A DNA stretch of 64,000 nucleotides. Source: Hydrogenovibrio halophilus DSM 15072 (lineage in GTDB: Bacteria > Pseudomonadota > Gammaproteobacteria > Thiomicrospirales > Thiomicrospiraceae). Below the pieces are notes generated by a model. That model was not told where the DNA came from. It did not search any database and worked only from the letters and a program-made list of their open reading frames with translations. Below, one piece after another: positions 29,883 to 40,694 of this stretch (positions are counted from its first letter, which is position 1; every line of letters starts with the position of its first letter). The stretch spans positions 1,185,164 through 1,249,163 of the forward strand of contig NZ_KB913033.1 of NCBI RefSeq assembly GCF_000384235.1, given 5' to 3'. Made by a program: the position numbers and the translations under genes.

Positions 29883-29949
29883 TCTCGTGCTCGTATAGTC
29901 ACCCAAAGCAAGTTGAGCTGTTTGTACTGTCATGACGACCGCTTCCCCT

Positions 29950-30245
29950 TGTCATCCCGACCGGAGCGGAGGGATCTTTTTCAGGGTGGCACTGTCGGCT
30001 GGAGATCCTTCGGCTTCGCTCAGGATGACAGGGGGTGTCATACCAACCGTTCCCCTTGTCATCCCGACCGGAGCGGAGGGATCTTCTTCGGGATGGCACT
30101 GTCGGTTGAAGATCCTTCGGCTTCGCTCAGGATGACAGGGGGTGTCATACCAACTGTTCCCCTTGTCATCCCGACCGGAGCGGAGGGATCTTTTTCAGGA
30201 TGGCACTGTCGGCTGGAGATCCTTCGGCTTCGATCAGGATGACAG
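29950..30245. repeat. three tandem 82-bp foldback repeats, 107-bp period
   Basis: Copies lie at 29950-30031, 30057-30138 and 30164-30245. Start-to-start spacing is exactly 107 bp both times, and the 25-bp spacers also match (GGGGTGTCATACCAAC...). Each copy runs from TGTCATCCCGACCGGAGCGG to GGATGACAG and can fold on itself. They lie between the adaptor gene and the DUF6447/SapC pair, just before a terminator. Confidence 0.92.
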
Positions 30246-30283
30246 GAATAAGTTGTGTATGTTATTTTTTCTAAATTACAGAA

Positions 30284-31437: not shown

Positions 31438-31562
31438 AATTGCACTCTCAATCAAATAAATTAACTCAGAATTCTAACACAGAAGGAAGGGATTCAGGCC
31501 CGGACGAAAGTCTTTCCTGTCATTCCGATTCGTTCTTTTTGTCATGACGACCGTTCCCCTTT

Positions 31563-31644
31563 TGTCATGACGACCGGAGCGGAGGGATCTTCTTCAGGAT
31601 AGCACTGTCGGCTGGAGGTCCTTCGGCTTCGCTCAGGACGACAG
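31563..31644. repeat. 82-bp foldback repeat, diverged copy
   Basis: This copy has the same length as the others, but both outer arms have drifted (TGTCATGACGACC and GGACGACAG). The compensating change keeps part of the outer pairing. It lies between sapC and the truncated transposase copy, and a half-copy follows at about 31674-31700. Confidence 0.8.
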
Positions 31645-31731
31645 GGGGTTGTCATTCCGATTCGTTCTTTTTGTCATGACGACCGAAGCGGAGGCATCTT
31701 TAAAGGTGTTGACGGTTGATCGTGACGCATT

Positions 31732-32685
31732 TTAAGCCCCGAACAACATTTTGGCCGCGCTTTGTCCTTTGACAAACCGTTGATCACGCTCAGACCGGTG
31801 TTTGTTCAAACTCATCACCTGACCCACAGCCCCACCAAACTTGTTTAACCAGCTACTTTGAACAAAAGCTTCCATGTGTTTGTCATCCAAGCCCAATCGC
31901 TGCATCAAAGGCGGCAGATTTTCATTCATGTGCCCGGACTTATCCGGATGCACCGCACGGCCCAGAAAATCCACATACGCCATGTAACCCGTAGCCGAGC
32001 AAGGGATGGCGGGGTCTTCCAGACCAGACGCATCAAACGCCAGCAATGGTGCTGTGGGAATTTTCTCCAGCCGTTCCAGAAACGGTTGCGCAAATGCAGA
32101 TTCTTTGTCAGACGTCTTTGTAACCAGGCCTGGTAGTTTTTCAGGTGCTGCCTCAAAATGATACACCCCCTGCAAACGTCGCTGCACAGAGGTAAAATCC
32201 GAATCCAACAACTCATGTGCGATATTGGCCCGCACCGGGTTCAAATCCACATACGCCATCGCCGCCAATACCGCCTGTTCATCCAACAATGCCTGAGACT
32301 TAAAGCGGCCTTCCCAAAACCGGCCCTTGACCTCATCTTCCTGATTGGCATAACGGGCAATCGACTCATTCAACACCCGCATATACCAAGACACATCCAT
32401 CAAACGCTCACGGTAAATCTCAGCCTGTTCCTGTACTCGTTTTAATGACCCGGCGCTTAATGCTTTGGGATCAGCCAAATAATCCTGCACCAACTTGGGC
32501 GCTGCAAACAACTGGGTCCATTGAAGTAACACCTCATCCATTGACCAGCTTTCCGCTTTCACCTGATTGACCCGCACCACCAAATGATAATGGTTGCTCA
32601 TTACCGCAAACGCCGCCACATCAATGGCAAACACCGATGCCAACTGCATCATCCGCTGTTCAATCCAGGGTTTGCGATGCTCGTA
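31732..32685 (-). pseudogene. truncated REP-associated tyrosine transposase, copy 1
   Basis: Nearly identical to the full-length copy at 39538-40608, but it begins at the codon for residue Y40 of that copy. Upstream of 32685 the DNA switches to an integrase fragment. The HUH motif (SNHYHLVV) and the conserved VDLNPVRANIA and GRFWEGRFKSQAL segments remain, but the N-terminal strand is lost, so activity is unlikely. The 3' flank, including a half 82-bp repeat and GTGTTGACGGTTGATCGTGA, is shared with copy 2. Confidence 0.85.
32123..32134. repeat. ACCAGGCCTGGT palindrome (transposase copy 1)
   Basis: The exact 12-mer is read on the minus strand as LPGLVTK, and is kept at the same place in copy 2. 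Confidence 0.9.
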
Positions 32686-33243
32686 TTTGAGGCATTGGAG
32701 ACATCCAGCGCCAAAATGCTCAAATACATTGTCTCGATGTTGCTGCTCACCGGTGCTCGCAAGAATGAAGTCTTAACCACAAAGTGGGAAGATTTTGATT
32801 TGGAGCGGCGCATCTGGACCATCGAATTCACCAAGGCCGGTAAAACTCGGCATGTGCCATTATCCGATGGTGTCATCACCTTGTTAAGCCAGGTTCCAAA
32901 AATTGAAAACTGTGATTGGGTCTTTGCCAACCCTGACACCCAAAAACCTTACAAGCACATTTTTTACGCTTGGGATGTGGTCAGAAAGCGGGCAGGGCTG
33001 GAAGAGCTGCGCATCCATGACCTACGCCATTCGTTCGCTTCTTTTCTGGTCAATGGCGGTCGATCTTTGTATGAAGTGCAAAAGCTATTAGGTCACACCC
33101 AAATCAAAACCACACAGCGGTATGCGCATCTGTCGCACGACTCGTTATTGTCTGCGGCCAGCACCGCCATGAGTCATGTGCCCATGGCGCAATCGATGCC
33201 CAACAAAGCCGAGGCATTGCCGTTGGTTGAGGTCGATGGGTGA
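32686..33243 (+). pseudogene. tyrosine recombinase (phage-type integrase), C-terminal fragment
   Basis: This fragment encodes the catalytic half of a tyrosine recombinase, with all active-site residues visible: Arg in LTGARKNEVL, HxxR in HDLRHSFAS, His in LLGHTQIKTT and Tyr in RYAHL. The N-terminal core-binding and arm domains are absent. Its 5' end abuts the truncated transposase at 32685, and the frame continues into antisense transposase sequence only by chance. It is a relic of an integrated element and marks the left side of the accessory island. Confidence 0.85.
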
Positions 33244-33249
33244 AATGGG

Positions 33250-33277
33250 TTGACTGCAAAGCGAAACAGAGTATAGT
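33250..33277 (+). promoter_or_regulatory. sigma-70 promoter of the Abi-associated RNA
   Basis: TTGACT (33250-33255) and TATAGT (33272-33277) are spaced by 16 bp. Transcription would begin near 33284, right at the left side of the structured RNA. Confidence 0.75.
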
Positions 33278-33283
33278 ATTAAT

Positions 33284-33355
33284 TAACAAACCCGCTACAC
33301 GTCCTGTATTCGTATAGGGTTCTGCTTCGGCAGACGTGCAAAAAGCGGGTCTTTT
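33284..33355 (+). ncRNA. structured RNA upstream of the Abi_2 gene, abiF-motif-like
   Basis: A compact fold is visible. The outer stem is ACCCGCT (33290-33296) with AGCGGGT (33344-33350). The middle stem is CACGTC (33298-33303) with GACGTG (33333-33338). Two internal hairpins carry TTCG loops: CCTGTA/TATAGG at 33303-33318 and TCTGC/GCAGA at 33321-33334. Some ends compete, which suggests alternative pairings or a pseudoknot. A T-rich tract follows the outer stem like a terminator. I recall a published conserved RNA motif named abiF found just upstream of AbiF/AbiD genes; the position and nested fold here fit it. Identity needs a covariance-model search. Confidence 0.7.
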
Positions 33356-33375
33356 ATTTTCCCTCCTTCTTTTTT

Positions 33376-34248
33376 ATGCCTCAGCAAAAACGTCACTTTC
33401 AAAAACAAGCGCTTACCCCAGAAAAACTGCTCAAAAAGTACGAGTCTAATGGTTTGATTGTGCCGGATGATCAAAGAGACCTAGCACTCAAATATTTTCG
33501 TTTTGTCGGTGCGTATCGGCTCAAAGGGTATATGTTTGACCATTTTGACGAAAGGACCAAGCAATTTACCCAGAATTATGAACTGGATGATCTCATCCAG
33601 CAATATGAGTTCGACAGAGAGTTAAGGCTGATTACGATTGATGCCATTGATCGCATCGAGGTCGCTGTCAGAGCCAGCATTTCAAATCATTTGAGCCTAA
33701 GCCATTCCCCGCATTGGTTTTTGGATAAAACCCTGTTCAAAAGCACACGCCACTGGGACTATGCCAAGCTGTGCAAAAAGCTGGAAGAGGAAGTGCGCAA
33801 TGGACGAAAAAAGCGTTTTATTCAACACTATTACGACCATTATGAATTCCCGGAATATCCGCCCAGTTGGGCCATGAGTGAAATCATTTCATTCGGTTTC
33901 TGGTCAAAGACATACGCCATTTTAAAAAATCCCAATGATCGGAAAGCCATCTCTATGAAATTTGAGATTGACCAGCCAGAAGTTTTCAGGTCATGGGTCC
34001 ATGCCTTATCCGTACTGAGAAATCACGCTGCCCACCACAGTCAAATCCTACGGACCCCGTTGCGCGTAAAACCCACCAACTACAAGCGCAAACAAATAAG
34101 GTTTCATAGACCCGATCAATTCGCTTCTATGGTCGTCATTATTAATTATTTTCTGGGTCAGATAGGGTTGAATGATGGCTGGGACAAGCAGCTTGAGAGA
34201 CTGTTTGAGTCTTATCCAAAAGTTGATCGGGCTGACCTTGGATTGTAA
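33376..34248 (+). CDS. Abi_2 (AbiD/AbiF-like) abortive-infection protein
   Basis: This 290-residue member of the Abi_2 family shows LLKKYESNGLIVPDDQRDLA and YFRFVGAYRLKGYMF at the N-terminus. Next come QYEFDRELRLITIDAIDRIEVAVRA and, at 214-221, LRNHAAHH. The last is an R-x4-H pattern as in HEPN ribonucleases (R215, H220). Family members stop phage growth by killing or arresting the host. The gene begins 20 bp after the structured RNA, so RNA and protein may form a type III-like toxin-antitoxin pair. It sits amid transposase and integrase debris, a usual defence-gene setting. Confidence 0.85.
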   Translation: MPQQKRHFQKQALTPEKLLKKYESNGLIVPDDQRDLALKYFRFVGAYRLKGYMFDHFDERTKQFTQNYELDDLIQQYEFDRELRLITIDAIDRIEVAVRASISNHLSLSHSPHWFLDKTLFKSTRHWDYAKLCKKLEEEVRNGRKKRFIQHYYDHYEFPEYPPSWAMSEIISFGFWSKTYAILKNPNDRKAISMKFEIDQPEVFRSWVHALSVLRNHAAHHSQILRTPLRVKPTNYKRKQIRFHRPDQFASMVVIINYFLGQIGLNDGWDKQLERLFESYPKVDRADLGL

Positions 34249-39426: not shown

Positions 39427-39537
39427 AAGAAACATGGGTGTCCTTTTTCTTAGCTTTTTGGCGTAGATTGATGTTTTTGTTATGCCGACCGAAGTGGAGG
39501 CATCTTTAAAGGTGTTGACGGTTGATCGTGACGCATT

Positions 39538-40608
39538 TTAAGCCCCGAACAACCTTTTGGCCGCACTTTGTCCTTTGACAAACCGTTGATCACGCTCAGA
39601 TCGGTGTTTGTTCAAACTCATCACCTGACCCACAGCGCCACCAAACTTGTTCAACCAGCTACTTTGAACAAAAGCTTCCATGTGTTTGTCATCCAAGCCC
39701 AATCGCTGCATCAAAGGCGGCAGATTTTCATTCATGTGCCCGGACTTATCCGGATGCACCGCACGGCCCAGAAAATCCACATACGCCATGTAATCCGTAG
39801 CCGAGCAAGGGATGGCGGAGTCTTCCAGGCCAGATGCATCAAACGCCAGCAATGATGCAGTGGGAATTTTCTCCAGCCGTTCCAGAAACGGTTGCGCAAA
39901 TGCAGATTCTTTGTCAGACGTCTTTGTAACCAGGCCTGGTAGTTTTTCAGGTGCTGCCTCAAAATGATACACACCCTGTAAACGACGCTGCACCGACGTA
40001 AAATCCGAATCCAACAACTCACGAGCGATATTGGCCCGCACCGGGTTCAAATCCACATACGCCATCGCCGCCAATACCGCCTGTTCATCCAACAATGCCT
40101 GAGACTTAAAGCGGCCCTCCCAGAACCGGCCCTTGACCTCATCCTCCTGATTGGCATAACGGGCAATCGACTCATTCAACACCCGCATATACCAGGAAAT
40201 GTCCATCAACCGCTCACGGTAAATCTCAGCCTGTTCCTGTACTCGGTTTAATGACCCGGCGCTTAATGCTTTGGGATCAGCCAAATAATCCTGCACCAAC
40301 TTGGGCGCTGCAAACAACTGGGTCCATTGAAGTAACACCTCATCCATTGACCAGCTTTCCGCTTTCACCTGATTGACCCGCACCACCAGATGATAATGAT
40401 TGCTCATCACCGCAAATGCCGCCACATCAATGGCAAAGACCGATGCCAGCTGCATCATACGCTGCTCAATCCAGGGTTTGCGATGTTCATAGTTACGCCC
40501 GGAAATAGAATCCACGCCACACAAAAACGCCCGACGGACACAGCGATTGACCAGATGATACCAAGGGGTTTCAGAAAGATTGATTTGAGAATCACGGGCA
40601 CGAGTCAT
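39538..40608 (-). CDS. REP-associated tyrosine transposase (Y1_Tnp / RAYT), copy 2
   Basis: This 356-residue single-strand transposase is the complete version of the copy truncated at 31732. The N-terminal Y1 domain has PWYHLVNRCVRRAFLCG and the metal-binding HUH pair in SNHYHLVV (H71, H73). The middle part has the RAYT-typical GRFWEGRFKSQALLDEQAV and AYVDLNPVRANIA. The C-terminal 130 residues are an extension. RAYTs are usually single-copy domesticated genes that mobilise nearby REP hairpins; here two large copies and two right-end fragments show actual multiplication. It carries its own ACCAGGCCTGGT site. Confidence 0.88.
   Translation of the reverse strand: MTRARDSQINLSETPWYHLVNRCVRRAFLCGVDSISGRNYEHRKPWIEQRMMQLASVFAIDVAAFAVMSNHYHLVVRVNQVKAESWSMDEVLLQWTQLFAAPKLVQDYLADPKALSAGSLNRVQEQAEIYRERLMDISWYMRVLNESIARYANQEDEVKGRFWEGRFKSQALLDEQAVLAAMAYVDLNPVRANIARELLDSDFTSVQRRLQGVYHFEAAPEKLPGLVTKTSDKESAFAQPFLERLEKIPTASLLAFDASGLEDSAIPCSATDYMAYVDFLGRAVHPDKSGHMNENLPPLMQRLGLDDKHMEAFVQSSWLNKFGGAVGQVMSLNKHRSERDQRFVKGQSAAKRLFGA
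39929..39940. repeat. ACCAGGCCTGGT palindrome (transposase copy 2)
   Basis: The exact 12-mer sits at the position equivalent to 32123-32134, again read as LPGLVTK. Confidence 0.9.
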
Positions 40609-40694
40609 AATGAGGGCTCCGAAATAAGATTAAGTTAAATGCAGTATAGAAAAAGAGCGGTGGGAATGCAAAGAAACATGGGTGTCCTTTTTCT

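Follow-up and report, generated by a model that had tools for sequence, protein, structure and literature searches.

A short structured RNA lies directly in front of an abi_2 gene. Does the RNA control the protein, and does the pair belong to a known kind of defence system? We address this for one locus in the window, the whole 64,000-nucleotide stretch of Hydrogenovibrio halophilus DNA that was analysed (Table 1). AbiF-RNA units are already known, and the window locus is a structural variant of them. Quite probably it is a toxin-antitoxin unit of the AbiF type that acts against phages and has an RNA antitoxin, and whose RNA represents a new structural variant of the abiF RNA.

Table 1. Features of the RNA-abi_2 locus, in positions of the window.
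Feature	Position	Strand	Basis
Sigma-70-like promoter TTGACT-N16-TATAGT	33250..33277	+	promoter scan
Antitoxin-type RNA (putative), enlarged abiF variant, ~75 nt	33284..33360	+	fold, covariation, model R1
Outer stem P1, 5' strand ACCCGCU, pairs with 33344-33350	33290..33296	+	fold, covariation
Inner stem P2, 5' strand CACGU, pairs with 33334-33338 ACGUG	33298..33302	+	fold, covariation
Hairpin A CCUGUA-UUCG-UAUAGG, not in canonical abiF consensus	33303..33318	+	fold, covariation, consensus comparison
Hairpin B CUGC-UUCG-GCAG, not in canonical abiF consensus	33322..33333	+	fold, consensus comparison
P2, 3' strand ACGUG	33334..33338	+	fold, covariation
Single-stranded CAAAA between P2' and P1'; position of the CA... 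strand of canonical abiF RNA	33339..33343	+	consensus comparison
P1, 3' strand AGCGGGU	33344..33350	+	fold, covariation
U-rich tract after P1', terminator-like	33351..33360	+	sequence
abi_2 (abiD/F-type) gene, 290 aa, predicted HEPN RNase toxin	33376..34248	+	Pfam Abi_2, PADLOC AbiD, fold
HEPN motif codons, R215-N-H-A-A-H220	34018..34035	+	sequence, alignment of 19 proteins

The gene product matches Pfam Abi_2 (PF07751) with an E-value of 5.1e-46 and 157.7 bits against a cut-off of 25.6, and PADLOC assigns it to AbiD (E 2.9e-54). A sequence search of solved structures returned 8vz6 at E 2.5e-38; the sole other match has E 0.38. AlphaFold2 gave a model with a pLDDT of 93.4 from 19 sequences (an earlier model from six sequences, with a pLDDT of 69.5, was discarded). 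This predicted model matches 8vz6, 'PbAbiF dimer bound to ncRNA', with a TM score of 0.85 and E 3.3e-16, and the fold search of the PDB found no other chain under E 0.001. The PbAbiF-ncRNA structure (PDB 8vz6) reportedly comes from Zilberzwige-Tal et al., Cell 2025.

An Abi_2 gene with a HEPN-like R-x4-H motif shortly after the RNA is what the earlier note had described, and the motif is indeed there. R215, N216 and H220 are invariant in all 19 aligned proteins (R-N-x3-H), and R-N-x3-H is the conserved RNase motif described for HEPN RNases and AbiF (PMC12373285). The Pfam, AbiD, predicted PbAbiF-fold and motif tests all class the window protein as an AbiF-type (Abi_2, AbiD/F) toxin. Its toxicity and ribonuclease activity are predicted from characterised relatives: AbiF of C. 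difficile is toxic, and toxicity is lost with R202/H207 changes (PMC12373285).

The proposed promoter upstream of the RNA also stands. It has 10 of 12 consensus matches, and the 301 bases scanned contain two overlapping promoter registers compared to a mean of 0.2 in shuffles. By eye, similar promoters lie 5' of the RNA in four homologous loci (L002, L003, L004 and L015). The structured RNA with nested stems and two TTCG-loop hairpins is equally well supported: positions 33278-33360 fold with an energy of -24.8 kcal/mol (z -3.60), and none of 200 shuffles folds as well. Its 5' end in Table 1 is inferred from the promoter and its 3' end is placed after the U-rich tract; a single A separates the 5' strands of P1 and P2. 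A terminator-like end holds in part. By inspection, P1 together with the U-rich tract (CUUUUAUUUU) looks terminator-like, but the terminator scan, which has a loop limit of 3-8 bases, reports no site at the 3' end of the RNA.

The abi_2 gene starts 25 nt past the outer stem. The separate promoter that had been claimed is not borne out: the scan gives only one, 5' of the RNA, and no second one for abi_2 itself. Hence the RNA and abi_2 appear to share a promoter, and the toxin mRNA would come from read-through. No evident Shine-Dalgarno sequence is seen 5' of abi_2 (CCCTCCTTCTTTTTTATG), and thus translation of abi_2 is uncertain. Where a Shine-Dalgarno sequence would be expected, the leader (33361-33375) contains CCTCCTT, the letters of the anti-Shine-Dalgarno of the 16S rRNA.

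Is the RNA a canonical abiF RNA (RF03085)? At the gathering threshold, Rfam yields no match of any family in the whole window. The abiF model, which the earlier note had named as a check, does not detect the RNA either at that threshold or at E<=10 in 33200-33450. (The few bases of similarity to Trp_leader and snoRNA models, far below their own thresholds, were dropped.) The model fails because it has no room for two hairpins, that is, for a larger three-way-junction variant. The RF03085 consensus consists of P1 (6 bp), an A, P2 (3 bp), an 11-nt loop, P2', six nucleotides beginning with CA, and P1'. The window-type RNA shares with it the frame P1-A-P2 ... P2'-CA...-P1' and an upstream AACA. 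In contrast, its P2 has 5 bp instead of 3, and the 11-nt loop is replaced by two hairpins and a joint of 2 to 3 nt starting with G (3 nt in the window RNA). Because frame, letters and protein family are shared, we read the window RNA as a homologue of the abiF RNA with a rebuilt three-way-junction cap.

When 15 Abi_2 loci were compared with the Rfam abiF model at E<=1, none of the five window-type loci matched, whereas nine of the ten others did, two of these nine above the gathering score. By eye, most of the other Abi_2 loci listed in the class have a canonical abiF-like RNA upstream. A further RNA type (ACCCCUCCCGCUACCC ... AGCGCCCUGCGAGGGGU) lies upstream of Abi_2 in L006, L007, L008, L011 and L016. 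For the RNA of L008, Rfam gives no abiF match at E<=1, and this type is possibly a further uncatalogued variant.

Abi_2 relatives occur in 14 of the 62 genomes of the order, and within the genus in one of 11 genomes, the window's own. Four close homologous loci (L002, L003, L004 and the split L015/L005) encode proteins 57-63% identical to the window protein. In a tree of 19 proteins, the six window-type proteins form one clade with a support of 100/100. The same RNA type is found at all five close loci, the window included, and its stems do carry the compensatory changes whose presence had been proposed as a test. Among the five RNAs, 94.5% of the cells are paired, and five pairs have changed on both sides, in three of the four helices; none of 500 shuffles reaches values as high, and slid controls reach at most 44.5% paired. 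With eight RNAs (seven distinct, L003 and L015 being alike; L094 is included), 154 of 157 cells pair and eight positions covary over all four helices, in segments fitted by hand because the gaps of L092 and L094 are wrongly placed in alignment A6, a fitting that leans toward the structure.

From the five RNAs, the window among them, we built a covariance model, R1. The window RNA scores 99.3 bits with this model, which was built partly from it. In the 62 genomes of the order, R1 finds five genomes at 99-110 bits, each match 5' of one of the five close Abi_2 homologues, and the next score is 31.4 bits; R1 matches its five members by construction, and the informative part is the gap to the next score. 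Under Infernal's stricter filters, the window gives the only high score across the class (369 genomes, best other 32 bits), and across the phylum (398 genomes) the best score other than the window is 31.3 bits.

An independent test of the linkage is a search with the RNA only. Over viral contigs, such a pattern found three contigs or two loci, L090 and L091 (identical in sequence) and L092. In each of them an Abi_2 gene of the window clade lies just 3' of the RNA, with an identity to the window protein of 50% in L090 and 48% in L092, and R1 scores the RNAs at 82 bits (L090, L091) and 68.2 bits (L092). The RNA co-occurs with the protein clade. Like the protein family, the fold of the predicted model, the motif and the covarying RNA structure, this linkage was computed directly. 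A protein scan of genome contigs with the single window sequence gave no match, and the same scan with alignment A1 gave three loci, all already in the set. The protein scan of viral contigs found none, though RNA patterns later located Abi_2 loci there. tRNA genes lie near three of the homologues; no integration-site model resulted.

R1 also scores canonical RNAs at Abi_2 loci weakly (L055 31.5, L010 29.8, L017 29.7 and L039 28.5 bits). Two of the 17 other places in the class scan (G325, G174) were matched to abiF RNAs 5' of Abi_2, likewise G037 and G032 in the order scan. Such scores add little because other short genome hairpins score as high, and we did not accept them as proof of kinship with the canonical abiF RNA. 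The remaining weak matches, similar in score and mostly short, may be ordinary terminators.

How would the unit work? Most likely as AbiF of C. difficile and PbAbiF do. One promoter would give rise to a short RNA, with most transcripts stopping at the outer stem and a minority reading through into abi_2. Abi_2 would be a HEPN ribonuclease, and the RNA would bind the protein and block its active site. Loss of the RNA, as could follow from a phage shutting down host transcription, would let the toxin cleave RNA and halt the cell. Characterised relatives, or type III systems in general, are the basis for where the transcripts are proposed to end and for the predicted toxicity of the protein, its binding and neutralisation by the RNA, its release on infection and its defence against phages.

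PbAbiF-ncRNA resembles the window locus in its fold, its HEPN RxxxxH motif and its ncRNA partner. It differs in sequence (26% identity over the fold alignment), and the three-way-junction cap belongs to the window RNA. PbAbiF binds one RNA per monomer, and bulge nucleotides inhibit the RNase (PMC12737573). AbiF-Cd/RCd22 from the C. difficile prophage phi027 has, like the window, a promoter, a short RNA, a terminator-like end and read-through into abiF. For this pair the role of the RNA as antitoxin has been shown, with RCd22 neutralising AbiF in cis and in trans (PMC12373285). Unlike the one enlarged unit of the window, which has no Rfam match, RCd22 consists of two canonical abiF motifs and matches RF03085. 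For the type III-like RNA-antitoxin unit of the earlier note, the AbiF fold, the covarying RNA and the clade linkage speak in favour, but the Rfam abiF match and the separate promoter fell away.

Alternatively, the RNA could be a cis-acting attenuator only, ending transcription before abi_2 and never acting on the protein. Such a role fits the terminator-like look of P1 and the U-rich tract and the one shared promoter, and RCd22 of C. difficile reduces the expression of abiF in cis as well (PMC12373285). Yet conservation extends to P2, the two hairpins and the CAAAA strand, which is more than termination needs, the C. difficile relative neutralises in trans, and phages carry the RNA apart from abi_2. 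We therefore consider attenuation alone unlikely.

The surroundings of the locus raise a second alternative. Near-identical Y1-transposase-like regions (31668-32689 and 39474-40657; 97% over 300 nt) form a direct repeat around a 7.8-kb segment, which contains, besides the Abi unit, an integrase ORF that looks shortened, an ORF with weak similarity to YhgA and a transposase with an rve domain. A direct repeat of about 107 nt is present in four copies at 29943-30263 and 31556-31662, with 79-100% identity. Could the unit be a decayed, non-functional remnant within an old mobile element? The transposase regions on both sides are compatible with this, and we keep decay under consideration because the integrase ORF just upstream looks N-terminally shortened and the unit occurs in only one of the 11 genus genomes. 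However, the abi_2 ORF is intact and its motif kept, and relative to its relatives the RNA has maintained its pairing by compensatory changes. An intact ORF is not automatic, since one relative (G057) has a split ORF, by decay or assembly error. Hence a remnant is very improbable. That the locus is a ToxIN/CptIN/TenpIN-like type III system agrees with an RNA 5' of a predicted ribonuclease gene and a terminator-like end between them, but is hardly credible for a protein with an AbiF fold (8vz6 alone) and a single RNA unit; ToxIN-like membership, which would mean a ToxN fold and tandem RNA repeats, was rejected.

The preferred reading, an RNA antitoxin paired with AbiF, leads to the question why the RNA also occurs without the toxin. 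Looser RNA patterns matched 14 viral contigs, of which six are supported by R1 and eight have no R1 match at E<=0.1. The six contigs represent five loci, with the toxin present in two (L090/L091, L092) and absent in three (L094, L200, L203). L094 is a 5.2-kb contig with a phage tail gene and no Abi_2 anywhere on it; its RNA is cut at the contig end. Despite the truncated end, R1 scores it at 33.4 bits (E 6.2e-07). Its P2 has one mismatch, the most stable fold predicted for it on its own differs from the three-way junction, and 23 of 200 shuffles fold as well (z -1.18). L200 and L203 are related phage contigs, the former with portal, terminase and head scaffold genes and the latter with an anti-repressor gene, and the roughly 11 kb examined of each contain no Abi_2. 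A further compensatory change has occurred in P1 of their RNA (ACUCGCC/GGCGAGU), for which the junction fold is predicted.

The canonical abiF pattern matched 76 viral contigs (39 distinct RNAs, 59 distinct with flanks). A custom Abi_2 HMM finds the gene within 600 bp downstream in two of them; five have less than 700 nt downstream of the RNA, and 69 have room yet no Abi_2 in the stretch examined. We tested 50 whole records with Pfam Abi_2 (46 of the 76 contigs, L094 and three named phages). The same two contigs exceed the cut-off, and 48 are without Abi_2, one with a sub-threshold match of 12.6 bits, counts to be read knowing that most viral records may be fragments. Beyond these 50, Abi_2 is also absent from four of four phage records with the RNA. 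Among phage records, 34 matched. Of these, 25 from Vibrio phages were dropped because they cover only the 3' end of the query, and two duplicates were removed. The seven that stay are Aeromonas PZL-Ah8 and PT2, Rhizobium Pasto, Salicola CGphi29, Synechococcus S-SZBM1, podovirus ctMEh928 and MT836731, an unverified faecal clone. None contains Abi_2 in the whole record. Rfam scores five of the seven RNAs above the gathering threshold, at 40.0-55.7 bits, compared to 42.0 bits for an AbiF-linked RNA of a Legionella plasmid. MT836731 (L178) has two tandem abiF-like hairpins, a DUF3800-VIII RNA (76.7 bits) some 300 nt further along, and no Abi_2.

Plasmids served as a control. The same query gave 19 records, of which six were dropped (<60% query coverage) and 13 kept. 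Ten of these have an adjacent Abi gene, in two a transposase gene comes behind an Abi_2 start, and one has neither. An Abi gene is thus next door in 10 of 13 plasmids versus none of seven distinct phages (Fisher p 0.003), with several of the plasmids being near relatives of each other. In the Pantoea plasmids L193 and L194 the abiF RNA is retained and the Abi_2 start runs into the transposase gene. In 369 bacterial genomes, the canonical pattern has four matches: Abi_2 lies downstream in two, a remnant in one (L184) and nothing in one (L182). Hence solitary copies also occur outside viral contigs. The genome with L182 (G322) holds no Abi_2 beside the RNA or elsewhere according to the A1 profile.

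Promoters differ as well. Counting distinct loci with duplicates removed, 13 of 18 Abi_2-linked RNAs have a -10-like box upstream (3.1 expected), compared to eight of 49 solitary RNAs (4.5 expected in shuffles; p 3e-5 for the difference). The latter is near chance, and so most solitary RNAs lack a host-type promoter; they would be made by phage transcription.

A PHROGs scan of neighbouring genes covered 15 solitary contigs (14 canonical and L094) with 20 proteins. It matched 11 contigs, including tail, portal, terminase, head protease, DNA polymerase, helicase-primase and integrase genes; for L120, L127, L140 and L171 the proteins tested gave no match. The RNA lies between the portal and scaffold genes in four T7-like Aeromonas phages (PZL-Ah8, PT2, PZL-Ah152 and T7-Ah), which are Autographiviridae according to their records and which we take to be lytic. 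Immediately before the RNA stands CCCTGACTATAGGG, which recurs in these genomes and which we take to resemble the T7 promoter. At the equivalent place, Vibrio phage ICP3 has an annotated promoter and no such RNA.

By analogy, we infer that phages may carry the abiF RNA as a decoy antitoxin against host AbiF. In the broader form of this proposal, phages, T7-like and T4-like ones included, widely carry solitary canonical and three-way-junction abiF RNAs as decoys that neutralise AbiF, and the enlarged cap is a counter-move; we see the scales as level on it. A precedent is the pseudo-ToxI of phage phiTE, an antitoxin-like phage RNA that mimics a type III antitoxin and, like the solitary abiF copies, comes without a toxin; its toxin family differs from AbiF (PMC5449768). 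The lytic cyanophage S-CREM1 carries an abiF sRNA, reported as an Rfam hit, and the accessible part of that report contains no proposal of AbiF neutralisation (PMC9964418). Among the matches listed for abiF RNA in open-licence papers, in the parts available, a phage abiF RNA as AbiF inhibitor was not found.

Solitary phage abiF RNAs could instead be ordinary phage terminators or leader elements, which we regard as possible, if somewhat doubtful. Some of them do sit just after the stop of a gene or between structural genes, and their stem and U-run resemble a terminator. The near-chance -10-like boxes and the four of 15 contigs without a PHROGs match point the same way. Complete AbiF units are also found in phages: an Abi_2 relative is present in 36 of 50,697 phage records, and RCd22 occurs together with abiF in phiC2 and phiCD2301 (PMC12373285). 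However, the stems vary in the phage set around a retained loop core, GCCUCU...GAUGC or GAAGC, in rows found with a canonical query that favours this core. Free of this bias is the compensatory change among the four Aeromonas phages, where P1 reads CCCGAC/GUCGGG in PT2, PZL-Ah152 and T7-Ah but CCCGCC/GGCGGG in PZL-Ah8, with an unchanged loop. There the RNA lies 5' of a gene and straight after a phage promoter, not at the end of an operon. Moreover, one contig lineage (L096, L107, L113 and L143) has behind the RNA a frame, LKFAKPAL, similar to the first eight Abi_2 residues and followed by sequence outside the HMM. This frame is a possible scar of toxin loss, a thin one of eight residues.

If the decoy reading is true, an enlarged cap would leave the toxin unsilenced by canonical decoys, until phages gained the enlarged form too. 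A protein clade and an altered RNA cap that go together amount to a natural orthogonality experiment. AbiF is a proposed ancestor of Cas13 (PMC12165695, PMC12737573), and therefore variation in its RNA partner bears on the route from inhibitor RNA to guide. Both forms of the RNA are easily missed, the enlarged one being invisible to Rfam and the canonical one not annotated as RNA in the six annotated phage regions inspected. With the RNA traceable into phages that lack the toxin, antitoxin carriage as a counter to RNA-antitoxin defence becomes testable. In L200 and L203 the enlarged RNA lies near an M78-peptidase gene; the portal, terminase and scaffold genes of L200 come after the RNA region, and the anti-repressor of L203 is of the P22 type.
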